A stretch of 43,885 nucleotides of DNA. Origin: an uncultured Spartobacteria bacterium (lineage in GTDB: Bacteria > Verrucomicrobiota > Verrucomicrobiia > Chthoniobacterales > Chthoniobacteraceae). The DNA is taken from assembly GCA_903916085.1 (NCBI GenBank), contig CAIWVL010000083.1, positions 1 to 43,885 of the forward strand. The letters are read 5' to 3'. Shown piece after piece: positions 8,136-35,392 of this stretch; within the stretch, counting starts at the first letter, position 1, and every line of letters begins with the position of its first letter. The notes beneath the pieces are model-generated. The model did no database searches. It saw nothing but the letters and a program-made list of their open reading frames with translations, and was not told the DNA's origin. A program made the position numbers and the translations under genes.

Positions 8136-8453
8136 ATGTCCCAACATCACGACGTTTCGGAACACGATCACGAACTCCTCGAAGAAGCATCCCACTCGCA
8201 CCGCGAAGCTGCTCATCATTTCGAACTCGCTGCGAAGCACCATCTTCTGGCCGCTGAAGCTGACGAGAAGGACGACATCGCTACAGCTTCCCACCACGCT
8301 TACCTTGCCTACGGCCACGCGCTCCACGGCAAACTCTTTGCTGAAGAAGCCGCTTGCGAAGAAATCGCCGCTGACGAAGACGACGAAGATCACAACCACG
8401 AGGAGCACACCGATCACTCCCACGACCAGCACGGTCACTCTGCAAAGCACTAA
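8136..8453 (+). CDS. Histidine-rich small protein, probable metal-binding helical protein
   Basis: I recognise no named family. The 105-residue protein contains 22 histidines plus many Glu and Asp. The first 75 residues look like amphipathic helices with repeating Glu-Ala-Ala-His-His and His-His-Leu-Ala-Ala units; the tail from about 80 is an acidic and His-rich stretch (DHNHEEHTDHSHDQHGH). One Cys (C74). There is no signal peptide, so it should be cytoplasmic. Ni, Zn, Co or Cu storage or buffering is an inference from composition. The ATG at 8136 starts the coherent helical sequence; the frame remains open upstream into rsmH, but that part reads as out-of-frame rsmH. It is monocistronic, with a 208-base leader region and a strong terminator 25 bases after the stop. 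Confidence 0.8.
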   Translation: MSQHHDVSEHDHELLEEASHSHREAAHHFELAAKHHLLAAEADEKDDIATASHHAYLAYGHALHGKLFAEEAACEEIAADEDDEDHNHEEHTDHSHDQHGHSAKH

Positions 8454-8562: not shown

Positions 8563-9264
8563 TCACCGCGTCTTCATCGTCCAGCGTCCGTTGCGTTCTG
8601 CTAGAGCTGGTAGTTCGTCGGTGCGGTACTGGGTCTTGCCGATAGCACCCCACATCGGCACACCGGTTGCGCGCTGGAAATGGGCGTTCATACTTTCGCC
8701 CGAATGGCAGCCCCAGCTTTTGACAAAAGCGTCCTTGGTGAACATGCCGGGGCGCAATTTAGGGAGATCGTTTTCGTGCAACCAAACCTTTGAGGCACTG
8801 TCAATGTAGTTGGAATAATCAAACATCCAGCACGCCTTGTTCGAGTGCCCAAAGTATTCCAAATCGCTAATCTTGACGGCTTCTCGGTTCCTGCCCTGAT
8901 TCAGGTAATCCAAAAGCTCTGACGTTTTAGAAAAGTAAACCCGACGCACATGATAAGTGTCCCGCACCGAATCAATGAGCTTGAGCAGGTCCTTCCCCTC
9001 CTCACCTGCTCTGCGCAAATAAGCCGGTTTGTACACAAGCCAAGTGATCTGTGCCCCCGGCTCCGACTCTCGGATCTGCTGGATACGAATCCGAGCAGCG
9101 CGCACAAAGTTCATCCACCACCGGTCGTGAGGCTCAGGCTTGTAGTGCTCCCACTTGGAGAGAGACACGCCGCCCGAGATGATGATTACCTCACGCTCCG
9201 GTGCCGCATGAAGCGCCGACGCTAGCGCCATGAAAGCGGCCAAAATGGACAGGGTTCTACGCAT
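8563..9264 (-). CDS. Secreted protein of unknown function with a caspase-like His/Cys motif pair
   Basis: No family name recognised with certainty. The 233-residue product begins with a signal peptide (MRR, hydrophobic stretch to about residue 17, Ala-Leu-His-Ala cleavage site near 20), so it is exported. The mature part has alternating strands and helices: VIIISGG near 26, ITWLVYKP near 73, LEYFGHSN (His140) and FVKSWGCHSGES (Cys186). A hydrophobic strand ending in Gly-His, then about 45 residues later a hydrophobic strand ending in Gly-Cys-His-Ser-Gly, is the layout of clan CD (caspase-fold) peptidases and the related DUF4347 domain. This is a motif-level inference only. I start at 9264 because the signal peptide begins there; an upstream Met at 9288 is less likely. 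Neighbours give no functional link. Confidence 0.7.
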   Translation of the reverse strand: MRRTLSILAAFMALASALHAAPEREVIIISGGVSLSKWEHYKPEPHDRWWMNFVRAARIRIQQIRESEPGAQITWLVYKPAYLRRAGEEGKDLLKLIDSVRDTYHVRRVYFSKTSELLDYLNQGRNREAVKISDLEYFGHSNKACWMFDYSNYIDSASKVWLHENDLPKLRPGMFTKDAFVKSWGCHSGESMNAHFQRATGVPMWGAIGKTQYRTDELPALAERNGRWTMKTR

Positions 9265-9297: not shown

Positions 9298-10107
9298 TCA
9301 GATGGTCTGGCTTAGGAATCCGCCGTCCACCCGGATGTCGCTTCCCGTCACAAAACTGGAAGCCGCATGACTGGCGAGAAACACGCAGGCACCCACGAGT
9401 TCCTCAGAGGTTCCGAAGCGTTTCATCGGGGTGTGGCCCCAAATCGCTTGAGTGCGGGCGCTGGGCGTGCCGTCTGGTTGGAAAAGAAGGGCACGATTTT
9501 GTTCCGCTGGGAAAAATCCGGGAGTGATCGAGTTTACCCGCACGCCTTTGGGGGCCCATTCGCGGGCAAGGAATTGGGTAAAGTTGAGAACCGCCGCTTT
9601 GGCTGCGGAGTAGGCGATCACCCTAGACAAAGGCAAATGGGCTGAAACGCTGGCAATGTTAATGATGCTACCACGACCGCGCTGGCACATTCCTGGACCG
9701 AACACCTGCGAGGGCAACAGGGCGCCACCTGTTAGGTTCAGGTCGAAGGCCGCAGCCCAATCGGCCGCCTCAATCTCCTCAATGGCTTTTTGATCCGTTA
9801 CAGTGACCTTCGGGTCATTCCCGCCGGCCGCGTTTACCAGAATGCTCGGAGTGCCAAGTCCGGCCGTGACCGCTTCCAGAGCCTTTTCTAGTGAAGACCG
9901 GTCCGAGGCATCCGCCACCGCAAACATGGCCTGCCCACCGGCCGCATGAATTGCCTGAACACGAGCCTCCCCGCGTTCCGCATTGCGTCCTAGCACAGCG
10001 ACGCGTGCCCCCGCCGAAGCGAGGCCTTCAGCCAGCGCGCCGCCTAAAACCCCAGTGCCGCCCACGACAACAGCCACTTCTCCAGTCAGATCAAAAAGCG
10101 TACTCAT
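9298..10107 (-). CDS. SDR family oxidoreductase, D-mannonate oxidoreductase-like
   Basis: Predicted NAD(P)-dependent short-chain dehydrogenase of 269 residues, possibly interconverting D-fructuronate and D-mannonate in hexuronate breakdown. It has the cofactor motif VVGGTGVLGG (about residues 14-23), VNAAGGN (91-97), and a catalytic Ser near 153 with Tyr166 and Lys170 in YSAAK. The segments NLTGGALLPSQVFG, PGFFPAEQNRALL, HTPMKRFG and ASSFVTGSDIRVDGGF match the pattern I know from the SDR group annotated as D-mannonate oxidoreductase, rather than from generic fatty-acid reductases. The start at 10107 begins the conserved sequence; a TTG at 10128 would add seven residues. It stands alone, with no uxuA or kdgK beside it, so the substrate is inferred by family only. 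Confidence 0.8.
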   Translation of the reverse strand: MSTLFDLTGEVAVVVGGTGVLGGALAEGLASAGARVAVLGRNAERGEARVQAIHAAGGQAMFAVADASDRSSLEKALEAVTAGLGTPSILVNAAGGNDPKVTVTDQKAIEEIEAADWAAAFDLNLTGGALLPSQVFGPGMCQRGRGSIINIASVSAHLPLSRVIAYSAAKAAVLNFTQFLAREWAPKGVRVNSITPGFFPAEQNRALLFQPDGTPSARTQAIWGHTPMKRFGTSEELVGACVFLASHAASSFVTGSDIRVDGGFLSQTI

Positions 10108-10238
10108 CTTCAAATTAAGGAATTCCAAGTGCTAAGACCACCATCGTCTGGGGCTGTTGGCAAGCCTCGCTGCAAGAGAACCATGTTTCCAGCATTTATC
10201 CCCGTCAATGCCGCCCGGCTATGCTAAAACATGGCTCA

Positions 10239-15218: not shown

Positions 15219-15776
15219 ATGAAAGCGCGTCACTTCGAATATCGATTGGCATGTTTAGTCTCTCTACCGTCGGCATGATCGGCTGCCGCCGCCTTGTACC
15301 ATTGGTCAATCCCTCAGGAATCAGGACGACGCGCGTATCTGTGGATTCCAGAACGGTGTGAGCGCATGGGGCTGGTAGGAGACATGAACAATTTGACTGA
15401 GTCCGCACTTATTGAGAACCCAGTTGTTCGGAAGGTGTGCGAGGAGGTCCGTATTGGTATCCTCTGAATTGCGGAGGTTTCATGGGGCGATTCACCATTA
15501 GGAAATACGTGGGGGCAGATTTCTGGTGTTTGTACAAAAGAGCAGGCCAACACCTTTGCCATGCGGTCGGCAATCGTGAAGAGCGCGGGGCCCCACCTAA
15601 CCCCTGAACAGGCGGCTGCAAAAGAAAACCTCAAGGCCGCCCAACTCGAACTCAATCAAGCATCTCCTAAAGCCACACAGCGCTTATCAACCGTCTACGC
15701 GAGACAGTTAATTGAGGTGCCGCTGAAACTCCTGCCCCCAAATTATCGCAGGCGATCACTAGCCAAAACTACCTGA
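15219..15776 (+). pseudogene. Decayed lipoprotein-like gene (two frame changes and an in-frame TGA)
   Basis: A coherent protein can be read only by changing frame. The ATG at 15219 opens a signal-like MKARHFEYRLACLVSLPS and stops at 15276; the overlapping frame from 15251 continues with MIGCRRLVPLVNPSGIRTT to a stop at 15359; then the first frame resumes at about 15357-15366 with MGLVGDMNNLTESALIENP, meets TGA at 15465, and continues coherently as IAEVSWGDSPLGNTWGQIS and ANTFAMRSAIVKSAG to the stop at 15774. The Cys after MIG could be a lipobox. I do not recognise the family. Alternatively it contains sequencing errors. The last 8 bases overlap the convergent propeller gene. Confidence 0.5.
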
Positions 15777-18700
15777 CCAATGGCTGAGCCGTTTCAATCA
15801 CAAGCGTCCCCGCACTGAGCGATGCGTTGCCTGTAATTGTCTCCTGATTTCCAAGAGTAAAAACGCCTCCTGTCGATAATCCGAAAACTGTACCGGCCGC
15901 GTTCAGGGAGATTATCGGATTGGCAAGCACCAAAGTACCAGAACCGCTTAAAACGAGGGTTCCTGTACTGTTTGTTGTGGAGTCTACGGACGCGGTTCCC
16001 CCAGCAATACTAAGTGTGCCTGGTGAAATGATTACACCGGAATTCGTATTGTTCGGGGTAATAACGCTGGAGCTCGCATTGGATCCCGCAACGAGTGAAA
16101 CGAGTGAACCTGTGGAGCCGCTGGCGGTAATGAGCGTCGTAGTGCCAGTGCTGTTCTTTACAAGAGGCCCCGCAGTCCCTGCCGTTGTACTTGTCGCGTC
16201 ATTGCCTAGGGAAGTTCCTCCTGTGGTAACGATGCCGCCGGAAATGGAACCAATCGAGGTGATACCACTAGAAATCACAGCCCCGCCCAGATTGATTGAA
16301 GCATTGTAGGAGTTATTATTCAGCAATATTGTACCGGCACTCGTGTTTGGCGAGTTGGTTAAAGTGATTGAACCCGTCAGAGTCGATGTTCCAGTGATCC
16401 CTGTTGTGCTCGCGGGTATTTGAGCGTTCGTGCTATTCAGAACATTCACTCCGTAATCACCCACAGGCGCGTAAATGCTCCTGTCTGTTCCAAGAGAGAT
16501 GCGAGAGAGAGGGAACCATTCCCTGACTTTCCAGGACTCACAAACTGGGCTCAATCCGGGCCAAGAGACACGCAGGATCTGTCCACCATTGGTTCCCAGA
16601 ACGGCTTGGCCGCGAGCAAACACCTCGGAAGGTCCCCAAGGCAGAGTGGCGGGATCGCCCGCTTGAGTGAAATTCGCAGAATCATCTAACAGGAGGCGTG
16701 TCACGGTTCGCGACTCTGTCAGGTAAATGGTCCGACCGTCGATAGCGAGTAATGTCTCGGTGCCGATGGCTGTTGAACTAAACAACGAAGCCTGAAGCTC
16801 GTCTATCAAGCTAACCTGTAACTGGCGCACAGGGCCGTCAATGGTCGTCTGGATGCTTTCTGTGTAGGCGAGAAAGCCTGATTTGGAAATTTCGCCCATC
16901 GCCAAAAGACGCCCTGGCAGGGACACGGGCGTGCGCTGCACAGGCGCTTTCGGGTTTGTGAAATCGACCACGCCGAGACGATTATCATAGCTCTGGGGAA
17001 CTTCCCAGTTGGACTGCCACCTTGGAGAACTCCAAGCAACGGGATTCTGTCCGTAGCCGTATGCCAACAAGCCGTCTCCTGCCGCGTATCCCGAAACGAG
17101 GGTGGTCATCGTTGTAACGAGCGGATACGGCTTTAGAGCCACAGGAGCTGAAGGATTGGTGACATCGAAAGCGCGCACGAAGGCGGGTTGCGCCTTAAAG
17201 GTGCGGCTCACTGGGGACTGGATCGTTTGAGTCGCGACGGGGAGCGCAGACGCCGCGCCTGTCGCCGTGCTGTACGCTAGGATCGGGCCACCGTAAGGGT
17301 AAGAACTCGGGGGTTTGACCTGAGTAATGACCAGGGGCAGATTGTCTGTGGCCCAGAGGATACTGCTAATTTCGCAATTTGTATCTGAACTTGCCATCGT
17401 GACCGACGTCGTTCCTAGCAATCTCAGAGCAGGTAAAGCCGAGGCATCATAGACGTCCAAGGCGAGTTCCGCAGAAGTGGGAACATTCGAGGATCTATTG
17501 ATAAAGCAGGCCATCAACTGCGGCCCGTTGTTAGGATTCCAATTCTTGCGAAGGACGTAGAGCTTGGAGGATTTCAACACTGCCTCCTGTACGATGCCGT
17601 CCTTCAAATCAATGTCGGTCAAGATCGAAGACTCCGAGGAGGCCAAGGACACCCGAATCGCCGCCTTGTCCCCGGACCAAACAGCGCTGGAGCCATCGCT
17701 GATCTGAATCAGGTATTGGCCTGACTGTATGACTTGATTCACCGGCCAAGCAAGAGCCACATCCGCGAGAACAGCGGGGTTATCGCGATCATCTACATTT
17801 GCTGTGATGAGTTCTTTTTGAGAAATTGACGTCAGGACTCCATTAACCAACGTTGCTCGACGTGGGCTAAATTCGTGATTTAACCGGCCACGGAGCGTCA
17901 GTTTTCCACCATTATCTAAACTGATGTCGACCAAACGAATGAAAGACGCTTTCTCCGACTTTGAAACTCTGGGATTCCAGAAACTGGCGGAGAAAGGAAT
18001 TAAAGCGAGCCCGTCCTCCGGCAGCACCTTGAGAGCCTTGGGATCGTAGACTGCTTCGCTGTATCCCCACTGGTTTTCATTGATGAAAACACGGTCGATT
18101 AAAACAGGATGCGTGACATCGGCCACATTGAAGAGCGACGCAGCCACTCTGCCGCTGTCCAGTCCGATGGTGAACAGGAATTGCCCTGAATCACCTAAAG
18201 GTTCGAGATAAGTGGAGAAGCCGGGAACTTCGACGCTGCCTGTAATCTTGGGGGCGGTTGGGTCAGAGATGTCAACGACCCAAAGCGGGTCCGTATTCTG
18301 GGCAGTAACCACGAACAGTTTGCCTTCGAGGAAACGCGTGGCGTGCAGTGTCTCACCCGGCATGATCTCCAAGGAAGCCAACGGGGTGCCCGCAACCGTG
18401 AAATTTTCTAAGACACTTACCGGCCTAAACGAGTTGGAACTGTCCGAACTCATTGAGATTGCTGAAAGAGTTCCGTTTTGATACGACACGTTGAACTTAT
18501 CGTAGATGCATCCCCGCGTTTGAATCGGGGTTTGCGTGAGGCAAGTGGCCCCAGAATCAGCCAAACTGAACAGACTAATTTGCGAATGGTTCCCTGCACT
18601 CCAACTGGTAGTTGCCACGCTTAGCCAGTTGGTTCCAGCTGAGATCACTGCGGAATACGAGTCAGAAGCAATGTTGTGAGTGGCTCCGACCGTTTGAACA

Positions 18701-19713
18701 CCATTTGCGTCGACCAAAATCTCTGAAAGCAGCGTATTACAGGCCGAGTTGCCGTACTGCCCCCAATCGGTGGTTACGACAAAAAGGCGTCCCCCGGCCA
18801 TACGACTATCCGCGATGGAACCAGTGATGCTAGTGCGTGAGACCTCGTAAGCGGACCTTCCAGCCACACGTACCACAACCACGTTTGTGGTATTGTACGA
18901 GCCGTCTGGATCGCGCGTCAAAAGAACTAAATCCCGCTGGCCAGCCACAGTTGCCGGCAACAGATAACAGTCCTGCCCAATAGCAGGCATACGCAGCGAT
19001 GCCGTTAACAACGGATTGGACGGATCAGAGATGTCCAAAACTTGTAAGCCGCGAAGCTGATTGAAGTAATAAACGGTGTTACCATCCGTCTTCCAAATGT
19101 CTGCTTCAACGACTTGATCGCTCAGCGTGGAAGTCGTTGCATTCGTGGTTGGATTGGAAACAGCGACGTTCGAATTCGTAACCAGGTTCGACGCAACCGC
19201 CAAGGGGGCGGTTGTGGTCAACCGAGCAACAGCCGGGGTGGGCGCGAGCGCCGCAGACTTGTAGCCAAGCGCTGGTGTCTTGGCGAAGGTCTTGGTGCCT
19301 TGATAAAAACGATCGGGAAACTTGCTTTTAGCCGCAAAAGCCAGCGCCTTTGAGTCACTGAGCTGCCCTGTAGCCCGCCATTCGACGATGTCAGCCGAAT
19401 ACGCTTTCGCAACATTCAGCAGAGTCGGTTTGCCCTGGAGGCTCGCTAAACTCCAGCGAGCCCAGCGCGTGGAATTACGTTTCCGCACTTCCACCAGAAC
19501 CGAACTGCATCCCGAGGGAACGAGGACATCCACGGACTTGTCCGTGGTTTTGACAATAAGCGAAACGCTCCGTGTGGGCGCTATTTGGGTGGTTGCGGCC
19601 GACAATGACGGCCCTGACACAAGACTCGCCAAAACGCTGGCAAAAGTGACACGCGCGGCAAATGCCCTTACAAAGGGGCGTTGCATGTATTTTAAGGTTC
19701 TTGAAGTGTCCAT
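15769..19713 (-). CDS. Large secreted beta-propeller protein with Ser/Thr/Gly-rich C-terminus
   Basis: 1314-residue exported protein. The N-terminus has a positively charged, hydrophobic signal sequence ending near Ser-Leu-Ser-Ala (about residues 36-39). Residues about 200-1000 carry repeats of the form Val-x-Asp-[IVF]-[ST]-[DN]-Pro-x-x-Pro: LQVLDISDPSNP, LWVVDISDPTAP, AFDVTNPSAP and VVDFTNPKAP, as in the secreted beta-propeller (Beta_propel/LVIVD) families. Residues from about 1110 are low complexity with GTLVLSGSGTLVLANP-type strands, like autotransporter-associated beta-strand repeats, but no autotransporter barrel or PEP-CTERM anchor follows, and the protein ends TAQPLVR. A Met at 19686 is an alternative start. 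It is divergent from DUF1501 and convergent with the decayed gene. Probably a cell-surface or extracellular binding protein; no enzymatic motif seen. Confidence 0.7.
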   Translation of the reverse strand: MDTSRTLKYMQRPFVRAFAARVTFASVLASLVSGPSLSAATTQIAPTRSVSLIVKTTDKSVDVLVPSGCSSVLVEVRKRNSTRWARWSLASLQGKPTLLNVAKAYSADIVEWRATGQLSDSKALAFAAKSKFPDRFYQGTKTFAKTPALGYKSAALAPTPAVARLTTTAPLAVASNLVTNSNVAVSNPTTNATTSTLSDQVVEADIWKTDGNTVYYFNQLRGLQVLDISDPSNPLLTASLRMPAIGQDCYLLPATVAGQRDLVLLTRDPDGSYNTTNVVVVRVAGRSAYEVSRTSITGSIADSRMAGGRLFVVTTDWGQYGNSACNTLLSEILVDANGVQTVGATHNIASDSYSAVISAGTNWLSVATTSWSAGNHSQISLFSLADSGATCLTQTPIQTRGCIYDKFNVSYQNGTLSAISMSSDSSNSFRPVSVLENFTVAGTPLASLEIMPGETLHATRFLEGKLFVVTAQNTDPLWVVDISDPTAPKITGSVEVPGFSTYLEPLGDSGQFLFTIGLDSGRVAASLFNVADVTHPVLIDRVFINENQWGYSEAVYDPKALKVLPEDGLALIPFSASFWNPRVSKSEKASFIRLVDISLDNGGKLTLRGRLNHEFSPRRATLVNGVLTSISQKELITANVDDRDNPAVLADVALAWPVNQVIQSGQYLIQISDGSSAVWSGDKAAIRVSLASSESSILTDIDLKDGIVQEAVLKSSKLYVLRKNWNPNNGPQLMACFINRSSNVPTSAELALDVYDASALPALRLLGTTSVTMASSDTNCEISSILWATDNLPLVITQVKPPSSYPYGGPILAYSTATGAASALPVATQTIQSPVSRTFKAQPAFVRAFDVTNPSAPVALKPYPLVTTMTTLVSGYAAGDGLLAYGYGQNPVAWSSPRWQSNWEVPQSYDNRLGVVDFTNPKAPVQRTPVSLPGRLLAMGEISKSGFLAYTESIQTTIDGPVRQLQVSLIDELQASLFSSTAIGTETLLAIDGRTIYLTESRTVTRLLLDDSANFTQAGDPATLPWGPSEVFARGQAVLGTNGGQILRVSWPGLSPVCESWKVREWFPLSRISLGTDRSIYAPVGDYGVNVLNSTNAQIPASTTGITGTSTLTGSITLTNSPNTSAGTILLNNNSYNASINLGGAVISSGITSIGSISGGIVTTGGTSLGNDATSTTAGTAGPLVKNSTGTTTLITASGSTGSLVSLVAGSNASSSVITPNNTNSGVIISPGTLSIAGGTASVDSTTNSTGTLVLSGSGTLVLANPIISLNAAGTVFGLSTGGVFTLGNQETITGNASLSAGTLVIETAQPLVR

Positions 19714-32047: not shown

Positions 32048-34093
32048 TCACAAATTTGCAAACTGGGGATGGCCCGTGATCAGACGCTCAAAATCCTCCT
32101 GCGCCTCCACAGGAAGCCCCACCGGATAACGCGCCCCCGAGCGATGCCACTTCTTGAGCCATTCTGCGCCCAATACCTCGTAGGCGCCCTCCCCTCCACG
32201 ACCGGCCGCAGCAGACGTGAAGGCAATCGTTGTTTCTTGTTTCACGCCAGAATTACGCCCACGCGCCACCGTAAACCCTGCCGCAAGCATAGCCACGCGG
32301 GACGCTGTCGAACAAGTGTAGGTGAAGAGCTCAGCCGTCTTTCCCTGGCACGCTGTAAATAGTTTTACAAAGGCTTCCAAAGTCCATTGATCCAGACACG
32401 TCTTGCTAGAAAACATGTCATAGAAAATTACATCTGGAGGCTCAGGCGCTTCCTGCATGGTTTGCAAGAAATCACCTTTCACAAGCTGCCAGCTCAACCC
32501 TGGGTGCTCCCGGGATTGCCAACTGCCCTCACGCAAAATCCAGGCAGGCCCACTGTGACGCAGGTACGTGAACTTATCTGAATGACGGAAAGCCAAGGCG
32601 AGTGAGTCTAAATCATTCTCGAAACTTAAAATGCGCAAGGGGCGCACCGGTCCATTTTGAGCCGCAGCTTCAAAACACGTAATTGCAGCCATGGCGTTAG
32701 CCGCAGCCCCCAAGCCCACGTCCCAGATCACGAGCGGGTCGGGGGTTTCTTCACCTTCCCGCACGCGCACGCGCTCGGACAAACCCGCTTGCTCCGTGTA
32801 GAGCTGACGCGCCTCGTCCATCGGCTCGTTACGCGAATGCATGATTTCCCCAGAGCTAATGTGCCGAATGCTCGCAAACCCCTCGAAGGCCGTGTGGACC
32901 TCGTAGTTGCCCAACTGCAAAGGCGGCGTCTTCTTGCGCTTGATTTTGGCAGGCAGAACTGGGTTGTCCAAGTCGTCTTCCTGAAGGAACGCACGCTTGG
33001 CATGGTACAGCGCCATAAACCGGTCTTCCAAAATGCTGCGGCGAATGTCGCGCATCAATTTGTGATAGAAATGAATGTTGTGCTGTCCCAAGAGCTGCCA
33101 ACCCAACGTTTCCTTGGCCTTCGTCAAATGATGCAGATAGGCACGGTTGTAACGGGCACACGTTGGGCATTCGCACGAGGCGTCCAAGGGCTCGTCGGAC
33201 GCTTTGTAGATACCACGACGCAGTTGTAAAAAACCACGCGAAGTAAACGCCCCACCGCGTTGAGCCACTTGGGTGGGGATAATACAATCAAACATGTCCA
33301 CGCCCCGATGAACCGCTTCCAAAATGTCTAGCGGTGTGCCTACCCCCATTAGATAACGCGGACGATCTCTGGGCAGTAGATCAGCGGTGTATGCACAAGT
33401 ATCCTCACGCGCACTCTTGCCCTCGCCTACAGCCAGACCGCCGATGGCGAATCCGTCAAAGGGCATCTCTGTAAGTGCAGCTGCGCTCTCACGCCGAAGC
33501 TCTTCAAAAAGAGCGCCCTGAACAATTCCGAACATCGACTGCAAAGATTCACCCCGTGCCGCCAGACTCCGCGCCGCCCAACGGTGCGTGATGCCCATGG
33601 CTTCGCGTGCGGTGGAAACGTCTGCGGTGGAAGGAATGCACTGATCCAACACCATCATGATGTCACTCCCAATGGAGCGCTGGGTGGCAATGCTCACCTC
33701 AGGACTCAACATGATGGTCCGACCATCAAGATAGCTCTGAAAAACAGCGCCTTCCTCGCTCATCGAACGGGCGTGCGGCAGCGAAAAAATTTGAAATCCG
33801 CCCGAGTCCGTAAGCACGGAGCGCTTCCAACTCATGAACCGGTGAATGCCCCCGATTTGGTCAAAAACGGCAGGGCCCGGACGCAGTAAGAGATGGTAAG
33901 TATTTGCCAGTAGGATCTGAGAACCCGAATCTTCCAAGGACTGCGTAAGCTGCGCCTTCACCGTGGCCTGCGTTCCCACTGGCATGAACAACGGCGTGAG
34001 CACCTCGTTGTGCAAGGTACGAAAGCGTGCGGCGCGTGCGCGCGAACCGGAAGCGGTTGCTTCGAGTTGGAAATTAAGGCGGGAAGGAGTCAT
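32048..34093 (-). CDS. tgt: Queuine tRNA-ribosyltransferase fused to an MnmC-like methyltransferase domain
   Basis: Residues about 1-375 are a tRNA-guanine transglycosylase, exchanging G34 of GUN anticodons for preQ1/queuine. LTDSGGFQIF carries the general acid Asp96, GGLAVGE is the base-binding loop, VDMFDC the nucleophile Asp269, and Cys307, Cys309, Cys312 with His338 form the zinc site. The usual PTR-x-AR-x-G segment after the nucleophile reads PTQVAQRG (273-280). Residues about 390-660 resemble the SAM-dependent MnmC/COG4121 domain, with WDVGLGAAANAMAA, ILSFENDLDSL, VIFYDMFSSKT and GRNSGVKQETTIAF. MnmC acts on U34, so both halves would target the wobble position. The total is 681 residues, against about 375 for normal Tgt. 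I start at MTPSRLNF; the frame extends to 34204. Divergent from the Gfo/Idh gene. Confidence 0.88.
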   Translation of the reverse strand: MTPSRLNFQLEATASGSRARAARFRTLHNEVLTPLFMPVGTQATVKAQLTQSLEDSGSQILLANTYHLLLRPGPAVFDQIGGIHRFMSWKRSVLTDSGGFQIFSLPHARSMSEEGAVFQSYLDGRTIMLSPEVSIATQRSIGSDIMMVLDQCIPSTADVSTAREAMGITHRWAARSLAARGESLQSMFGIVQGALFEELRRESAAALTEMPFDGFAIGGLAVGEGKSAREDTCAYTADLLPRDRPRYLMGVGTPLDILEAVHRGVDMFDCIIPTQVAQRGGAFTSRGFLQLRRGIYKASDEPLDASCECPTCARYNRAYLHHLTKAKETLGWQLLGQHNIHFYHKLMRDIRRSILEDRFMALYHAKRAFLQEDDLDNPVLPAKIKRKKTPPLQLGNYEVHTAFEGFASIRHISSGEIMHSRNEPMDEARQLYTEQAGLSERVRVREGEETPDPLVIWDVGLGAAANAMAAITCFEAAAQNGPVRPLRILSFENDLDSLALAFRHSDKFTYLRHSGPAWILREGSWQSREHPGLSWQLVKGDFLQTMQEAPEPPDVIFYDMFSSKTCLDQWTLEAFVKLFTACQGKTAELFTYTCSTASRVAMLAAGFTVARGRNSGVKQETTIAFTSAAAGRGGEGAYEVLGAEWLKKWHRSGARYPVGLPVEAQEDFERLITGHPQFANL

Positions 34094-34189
34094 GAGTGGC
34101 ACCCACCACCCTGCCAAAAACCGCCCATTAAAGCAAAGACCTTGCACGAAAATGGCACCGCTCCTGCTAACGAAAGGCACCCCCAAAAA

Positions 34190-35392
34190 ATGCTCAGACG
34201 CCACTTTCTCTCCGCCTCAGCAGGAGTCCTAGCCTCCAGTCTCCTTCCCCGTTCGCAGGCAGCCGACGGCGCTTCCTCCAAACGCCTTCGAGTCGGGGTC
34301 ATCGGCCACACAGGCCGGGGCAACTATGGCCACGGAATCGACACTCTCTGGCTTAAACTGCCACAAACCGAGATTGTCGCTGTCGCGGATCCCGACCCTG
34401 CCGGACTCGCTTCAGCGCAAAAGCGCCTTACCGGATCCCGTCCATTCGCTGATTACACACAAATGCTGGATGAGCTTCGGCCTGACATCGTTGCAGTTTG
34501 CCCACGGCACGCCGACCAACATCACGCCATGATTGTTGCGGCGCTTAATCACGGTGCTCGCGGCATTTACGTTGAAAAACCTTTTGTGCGAACCCCGGCA
34601 GAAGCCGACGACGTCATCCGACTCTGTAAGCAAAACTCCGTCAGCCTCGCCATAGCCCATCGCAATCGCTATCATCCCGCCTTACCGGTTGCAGCCGAGC
34701 TACTCGCTTCTGGTGAATTGGGAGTGCCGCTGGAAATTCGAGCCCGAGGCAAAGAAGATCAACGCGGTGGGGGTCTGGATCTTTGGGTGCTGGGTTCGCA
34801 TGTCCTGAACTTGGCGGCGTTTTTTGCGGGCCGCCCGATTGCCTGCAGCGCCACAGCCTTTGAAAAGGGGCGCTGGGCGGTTAGCGCCGACGTCCACGAG
34901 GCAGACGAGGGCCTTGGACTGATCGTGGGTGACGAGATTCATGCGCGTTTTGAGATGGAAAGCGGCATCCCCGTCTTCTTCGGTTCGAAAAAGAACGCAG
35001 GCGACAAGACCGTTAACTTTGGGCTCCAGATTGTTTGCACCGGCGGCATCCTCGATTTGCGAATCGACACCGAACCGCTGGTTCAAGTGCTCCGGGGTAA
35101 TCCGTTCAAGCCGCGGTCGGATCCGCGCGCTTGGATTCCGGTGAGCAGCGCCGGGCTTGGCAAAGCCGAACCCATCGCAACCATCAGGGAACAGGTAGCC
35201 GGGCACTTGCGACCTGCCCAGGACTTGATTCAGGCTATGGAGACGGGCAAGCCAACATTGTGCGGCCCTGAGGACGGGTTAGTCACCGTGGAGATGATCC
35301 AAGCGATTTTCGCCTCCCACCGCATGGACGGGGCGCGTATCCCCCTACCCCTAACTAATCGAGGGAATGCGCTGGCTATTAGCGCAGGCTAA
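34190..35392 (+). CDS. Exported Gfo/Idh/MocA family oxidoreductase
   Basis: 400-residue NAD(P)-dependent sugar-type oxidoreductase. The N-terminus MLRRHFLSASAGVLASSLLP resembles a twin-arginine signal, as in many PVC Gfo/Idh proteins that are exported folded with cofactor. The Rossmann fold begins at RVGVIGHTGRGNYG (about residues 34-47), followed by VAVADPDP and the cofactor/catalytic motif YVEKPFVRTPAEA; the C-terminal beta-sheet domain follows. The substrate is unknown. The start at 34190 is chosen because it opens the signal-like stretch, 96 bases from the divergent Tgt start; the open frame extends into the tgt 5' end but that reading is its antisense. A strong hairpin with T-tract lies about 150 bases beyond the stop. 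Confidence 0.85.
   Translation: MLRRHFLSASAGVLASSLLPRSQAADGASSKRLRVGVIGHTGRGNYGHGIDTLWLKLPQTEIVAVADPDPAGLASAQKRLTGSRPFADYTQMLDELRPDIVAVCPRHADQHHAMIVAALNHGARGIYVEKPFVRTPAEADDVIRLCKQNSVSLAIAHRNRYHPALPVAAELLASGELGVPLEIRARGKEDQRGGGLDLWVLGSHVLNLAAFFAGRPIACSATAFEKGRWAVSADVHEADEGLGLIVGDEIHARFEMESGIPVFFGSKKNAGDKTVNFGLQIVCTGGILDLRIDTEPLVQVLRGNPFKPRSDPRAWIPVSSAGLGKAEPIATIREQVAGHLRPAQDLIQAMETGKPTLCGPEDGLVTVEMIQAIFASHRMDGARIPLPLTNRGNALAISAG

Follow-up and report, generated by a model that had tools for sequence, protein, structure and literature searches.

The question raised by positions 8563-9264 of the window, by which we mean the whole stretch of 43,885 nucleotides from an uncultured Spartobacteria bacterium, is whether a small exported protein of no named family could be a cysteine peptidase. 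The preliminary description had pointed to a strand-Gly-His and a strand-Gly-Cys element, 46 residues apart, that recall the catalytic pair of clan CD peptidases. The minus-strand open reading frame is intact and encodes 233 amino acids from an ATG at 9264. Its N-terminus is hydrophobic (MRRTLSILAAFMALASALHA) and resembles an export signal, put at residues 1-20 (9205-9264, minus strand) with a putative cleavage site; further stretches of the translation read DLEYFGHSNKACW and VKSWGCHSGESM. His140 lies within LEYFGHSN (residues 135-142, 8839-8862, minus strand) and Cys186 within KSWGCHSGES (SWGCHSGE being residues 183-190, 8695-8718, minus strand), so that both residues and their 46-residue spacing are as first described.

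In Pfam no match to the protein exceeds the cut-off (best row E 0.13), and NCBIfam and PADLOC give none. Searching PDB sequences with the protein gave nothing significant (best E 0.44), and the family profile returned no PDB row. When 79 aligned members of the family were scanned against Pfam and NCBIfam only stray weak rows appeared, with at most three members per Pfam family and one per NCBIfam family, and defence families gave four stray matches, one member each (best E 0.0046). The protein is of an exported type and of no recognised family, as had been stated.

We find the gene in 87 of 97 genomes comprising the window's own and its relatives (67 of the 71 of good quality). It is absent from ten, four of good quality, and is hence not strictly universal. 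Across 288 genomes sampled evenly over the phylum, a single-sequence search scored 51 positives and a profile search 52, the extra one (G248) being only a distant tip of an RHS protein. Both genome sets show one copy of the family per positive genome; weak second matches occur in two Akkermansia-group genomes (G311 and G128), both RHS-linked. A pattern scan of genome contigs retrieved 18 loci from close relatives only: 15 labelled Verrucomicrobia/Verrucomicrobiota, Spartobacteria or Chthoniobacter(aceae), two Akkermansia muciniphila and one Opitutus. Plasmid and phage collections yielded no family match, and among viral contigs 17 stretches fitted a pattern with none confirmed. A quick maximum-likelihood tree sorts the sequences by genome family in 15 changes, as few as 16 families allow; groups f1 and f18, when taken alone, do not form one side of a branch, and 27 of the 86 inner branches are weakly supported. 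This is an unnamed family of exported proteins, present in single copy in many Verrucomicrobia including the gut bacterium Akkermansia. In the literature searched we met no paper devoted to it, although it may be mentioned elsewhere.

Many of the 117 loci collected were one genome seen twice, and reduction at 93% identity left 89 sequences. The preliminary description had proposed conservation among homologues as a check, and here the answer is unambiguous: His140 and Cys186 are present in all 89. Also invariant are Gly31, Glu39, His46, Asp47, Trp50, Phe53, Arg85, Asn122, Tyr150, Gly206 and Trp228. The spacing between His and Cys is 46 residues in 79 members and 47 in the other ten, and one close pair has a dN/dS of 0.05, six further pairs being saturated at synonymous sites. 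Given the invariance, the spacing and this dN/dS, the His/Cys pair is more than a chance resemblance. By a simple hydropathy rule, 83 of the 89 members have an export-type N-terminus. Six lack a clear one at the start chosen by the script; of these, L063 has a hydrophobic segment upstream of that start and L068 has one further inside.

The surroundings of the gene were compared in 31 loci (18 from the pattern scan, 12 fetched and the window). No neighbour is common to most of them and none points to a substrate. In the window a short-chain dehydrogenase recognised by Pfam (9298-10128, minus strand) lies co-directionally upstream, 33 bases from the peptidase gene, and a homologous frame comes next upstream in 10 of 31 loci (8 by gene calls). 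It adjoins the gene only in close relatives, and it is probably without a functional link to it. At position +1 or +2 in five loci is an enzyme gene that, from its sequence, is presumably biotin synthase, and at −1 in four loci by gene calls, or six when L044 and L047 are added from the list of open reading frames, is one that is presumably diaminopimelate decarboxylase. These recurrences look like an ancestral location rather than a pathway.

Other features of the window deserve mention in their own right. Just downstream of the gene and convergent with it is a small His- and acid-rich frame (8137-8453, plus strand) with no Pfam match at E 0.01, whose relatives in L031 and L037 are part of a longer frame. 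At 32048-34204 (minus strand) a queuine tRNA-ribosyltransferase (PF01702, E 2.5e-138) carries a SAM-dependent methyltransferase (PF05430, E 1.7e-11) as a C-terminal fusion. At 15769-19713 (minus strand) is a protein of 1314 residues that combines a beta-propeller (PF09826, E 2e-51) with a C-terminal part that by eye is repetitive and rich in Ser, Thr and Asn.

Clan CD membership is assigned from the His/Cys dyad, by its order, type and surroundings; members share a Gly beside the His and an aromatic residue on loop 5, according to PMC4357240. In our family His precedes Cys in 89 of 89 members. Gly139 stands directly before the His in 84, and the residue after it is Ser in 87 and Ala in two, so that the usual His-Gly order is absent. 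The residue before the Cys is Gly in 86 and Ser in three. An aromatic residue is found at position 213 (8626-8628, minus strand) in every member, Tyr in 86 and Phe in three, in the loop after strand 204-208. By the clan CD rule set out in PMC4357240, the motif HDRWWMNF (residues 46-53, 9106-9129, minus strand), which follows strand 1 at the start of helix 1 and contains the invariant His46, Asp47, Trp50 and Phe53, may form a wall of the S1 pocket.

An AlphaFold2 model built from 79 sequences (pLDDT 94.4, pTM 0.90) places His140 two residues past strand 130-138 and Cys186 three past strand 175-183 by DSSP, both following strands as had been proposed from the letters. For the fold search, also suggested at the outset, the outcome was divided. 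Foldseek against the PDB gave no match at E ≤ 0.001 and is by itself not significant, whereas re-alignment of its 1000 highest candidates with VIA-align 2 (999 aligned) put caspase-like structures at ranks 1-16 and in 40 of the best 50 rows. The GPI transamidase PIGK scored highest (Z 12.9, rmsd 4.0, 183 aligned residues), then legumain (Z 12.2, rmsd 4.1, 181 aligned); a peptide asparaginyl ligase reached Z 11.4, the putative effector protease Tce1 Z 10.9 (rmsd 3.3, 149 aligned, 10% identity), CHAT 10.4 and a metacaspase 9.3, with caspases likewise above unrelated folds. By the re-alignment, the predicted model has the overall caspase/haemoglobinase fold.

As for the known families, Peptidase C13 (PF01650) and DUF4347 (PF14252) are not among the 24 Pfam families matched at E ≤ 1 by the 79 members; in the window genome C13 has no match at E ≤ 0.001 and DUF4347 has none. 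The clostripain-type motif, His-Gly...Ala-Cys (PMC12445089), is also missing, there being no His-Gly in the 89 members. By its predicted fold the family belongs with clan CD, outside C13 and DUF4347 by the models and outside C11 by motif.

Two of the genomes carrying the gene are very small, at 915,884 and 917,278 bases, the former length being that given for Xiphinematobacter, an endosymbiont of nematodes (915,884 bp; Table 2 of PMC4607532). Orthologues in both retain the His, the Cys and a hydrophobic segment ahead of the domain. Since an obligate symbiont with 817 proteins is judged unlikely to retain an accessory exported enzyme, this suggests that the family would have a core task in the cell envelope.

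Taking these observations together, we consider it likely that the product is an exported cysteine peptidase, small and of a single domain, with the caspase/legumain fold (clan CD) and a core role in the envelope. The undescribed bacterial cysteine protease first envisaged thus gains support, as a predicted activity, from conservation, from the model and from the re-aligned structures. In such an enzyme His140 would activate Cys186 for attack on the peptide bond that follows a selected P1 residue. The loop carrying the invariant His46, Asp47 and Trp50, together with Tyr213, may line the substrate pocket; the acidity of Asp47 would suit a basic residue at P1, by analogy only with Asp163 of gingipain RgpB (PMC4357240). 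Rather than serving nutrition or warfare, the enzyme would most likely mature an envelope protein at a specific site or control its quality, and that envelope protein would be one needed even by a genome-reduced endosymbiont. What emerges is a family of probable cysteine peptidases, one of them in Akkermansia muciniphila, that is nameless in the libraries searched. The invariant residues direct the choice of mutants and clan CD probes offer a direct assay, bringing discovery of the substrate within reach.

The same fold might instead serve binding without catalysis, in a pseudo-enzyme, or ligation, the dyad acting as a transpeptidase. The closest solved folds do include GPI transamidase and peptide asparaginyl ligases, and in 87 of 89 members Ser takes the place of the Gly that usually follows the catalytic His. 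However, one would not expect a pseudo-enzyme to retain both catalytic residues throughout, and the suggestion of a degenerate relative, made at the outset, finds no support. Structural nearness to ligases is moreover no proof of ligation, as legumain is tied with them. We therefore regard both variants as unlikely, and prefer a hydrolytic peptidase.

In a bolder extension of that peptidase reading, the protein would be essential and would go back to the ancestor of one branch of the Verrucomicrobiota; as an exported clan CD enzyme it would perform a step of envelope processing or transpeptidation unknown in other bacteria. It would then be a functional counterpart of GPI transamidase, and related tips of RHS proteins would have been recruited from it or into it. 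We put this forward as a rather doubtful speculation.

The family profile also draws in these RHS tips. It matches C-terminal tips in L148 (E 6e-17) and L149 (E 2.6e-7) and a fragment in L150 (E 3e-5). The L148 tip retains HDxxWxNF, Gly-His and Gly-Cys, and its model (pLDDT 82.6) aligns best with legumain-type enzymes at Z 10.1 and CHAT at 9.5; since short-chain dehydrogenases score close behind at 8.9, it is weaker evidence for a caspase fold. Pfam assigns the L149 tip to DUF4347 above its cut-off, and the tip aligns with the family so that His meets His and Cys meets Cys. The resemblance to DUF4347 noted in the preliminary description thus stands as a distant one, by way of this tip, but does not extend to direct profile comparison, in which DUF4347 (E 0.028), C14-like sequences (0.14) and one C13-like sequence (0.52) were not significant, none surpassing the best of nine control families (E 0.013).

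In two Akkermansia-group genomes the tip (L148:3577-5144, minus strand; L150:4324-5173, plus strand, where it is a fragment) is followed by a small membrane-anchored frame, and the two small frames are related to each other (31% identity, E 1e-13). They are probably immunity proteins that would act outside the cytoplasm, and tip and small frame together are likely to constitute a toxin-immunity cassette.

Kinship with such tips, and the immunity-like proteins after two of them, raise the idea that the window protein is itself a secreted antibacterial effector. Yet the family is single-copy and tracks the genome tree, it is kept by an intracellular symbiont, and the plasmid and phage collections contributed no member and viral contigs no confirmed one. 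The gene moreover stands alone, outside the RHS arrangement of polymorphic toxins and with no conserved partner alongside in most of the 31 loci. An effector is thus very improbable, and a peptidase with a core envelope role remains the reading that we favour.

Equally improbable, in our judgement, is a protein of Rossmann-like type with a His and a Cys that only resemble the caspase arrangement. It draws on the Foldseek rows, which begin with unrelated enzymes, a dehydrogenase at the top, and have Tce1 only at rank 27 (E 0.095) and caspase-8 at rank 48 (E 0.24), and on short-chain dehydrogenases that reach Z 8.8 after re-alignment. Against this, caspase-fold rows reach Z 12.9 and the first unrelated row comes at rank 17 with Z 8.8. 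Among BFVD viral models the first four are viral caspases or peptidase C14, the best, at E 7e-4, being the one below E 0.001. The order of the pair in sequence, its spacing and its strand positions also fit clan CD.

Finally, we considered whether the protein might sort PEP-CTERM proteins or act alongside exosortase. By eye, a PEP-CTERM-like protein adjoins the Akkermansia muciniphila orthologue, and PIGK is a clan CD enzyme that processes C-terminal signals. PorU, too, is a clan CD enzyme that processes C-terminal signals. Co-occurrence was scored in 49 genomes, 36 with the family and 13 without, an earlier subset having comprised 21. Such a role is scarcely credible and the partnership was rejected, the family being independent of both systems, since 10 of the 36 family-positive genomes have no match to PF07589 and 12 none to the exosortase model TIGR04178, whereas all 13 negatives match both. 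The genomes without PF07589 include the window's own and both of Xiphinematobacter size.

The exosortase absences are not all reliable. Genome G206, whose length equals that of A. muciniphila ATCC BAA-835 (2,664,102 bases in PMC4607532; locus L218:6792-7601, minus strand), has 14 PEP-CTERM matches and no exosortase by PF09721 or TIGR04178, despite the naming of Amuc_1470 as EpsH in PMC3048395. The four other g37 genomes tested gave one exosortase match each.

How, then, does the predicted peptidase compare with known systems? To DUF4347 it is tied through the L149 tip, with His and Cys aligned; the 21 DUF4347 domains that we read are nevertheless without the HDxWWxNF motif and, with one or two exceptions, belong to frames much longer than the domain itself. 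Caspase-like domains are known at the C-terminus of polymorphic toxins (Tox-Caspase; Zhang et al. 2012, PMC3482391), and the L148 tip has the His, the Cys and HDxxWxNF in common with our family, whereas the window gene lacks both an RHS part and an immunity partner and belongs to a family that tracks the genome tree. Tce1 of Pseudomonas aeruginosa, described in PMC13323088 as a putative T6SS cysteine protease effector with a His186/Cys240 dyad, is unlike the window protein in being injected and bound to Hcp3.

The 46-residue spacing recurs in two bacterial enzymes. The clostripain-family (C11) peptidase PmC11 has it between His133 and Cys179, but also has a nine-stranded sheet and a C-terminal helical extension of its own (PMC4357240), and the His-Gly...Ala-Cys motif of its family is not found in ours. 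The sporulation protease YabG, a bacterial candidate for clan CD that falls outside the eight MEROPS families named in PMC12445089, has it between His172 and Cys218; the likeness lies in the spacing, and YabG, unlike the window protein, is described there as a spore-coat protease of Bacillus and Clostridioides. Legumain and PIGK (C13) come closest in predicted structure, with the highest re-alignment scores at an identity of 7-16% in the structural alignments; in contrast to them, the family found here is a single exported bacterial domain.
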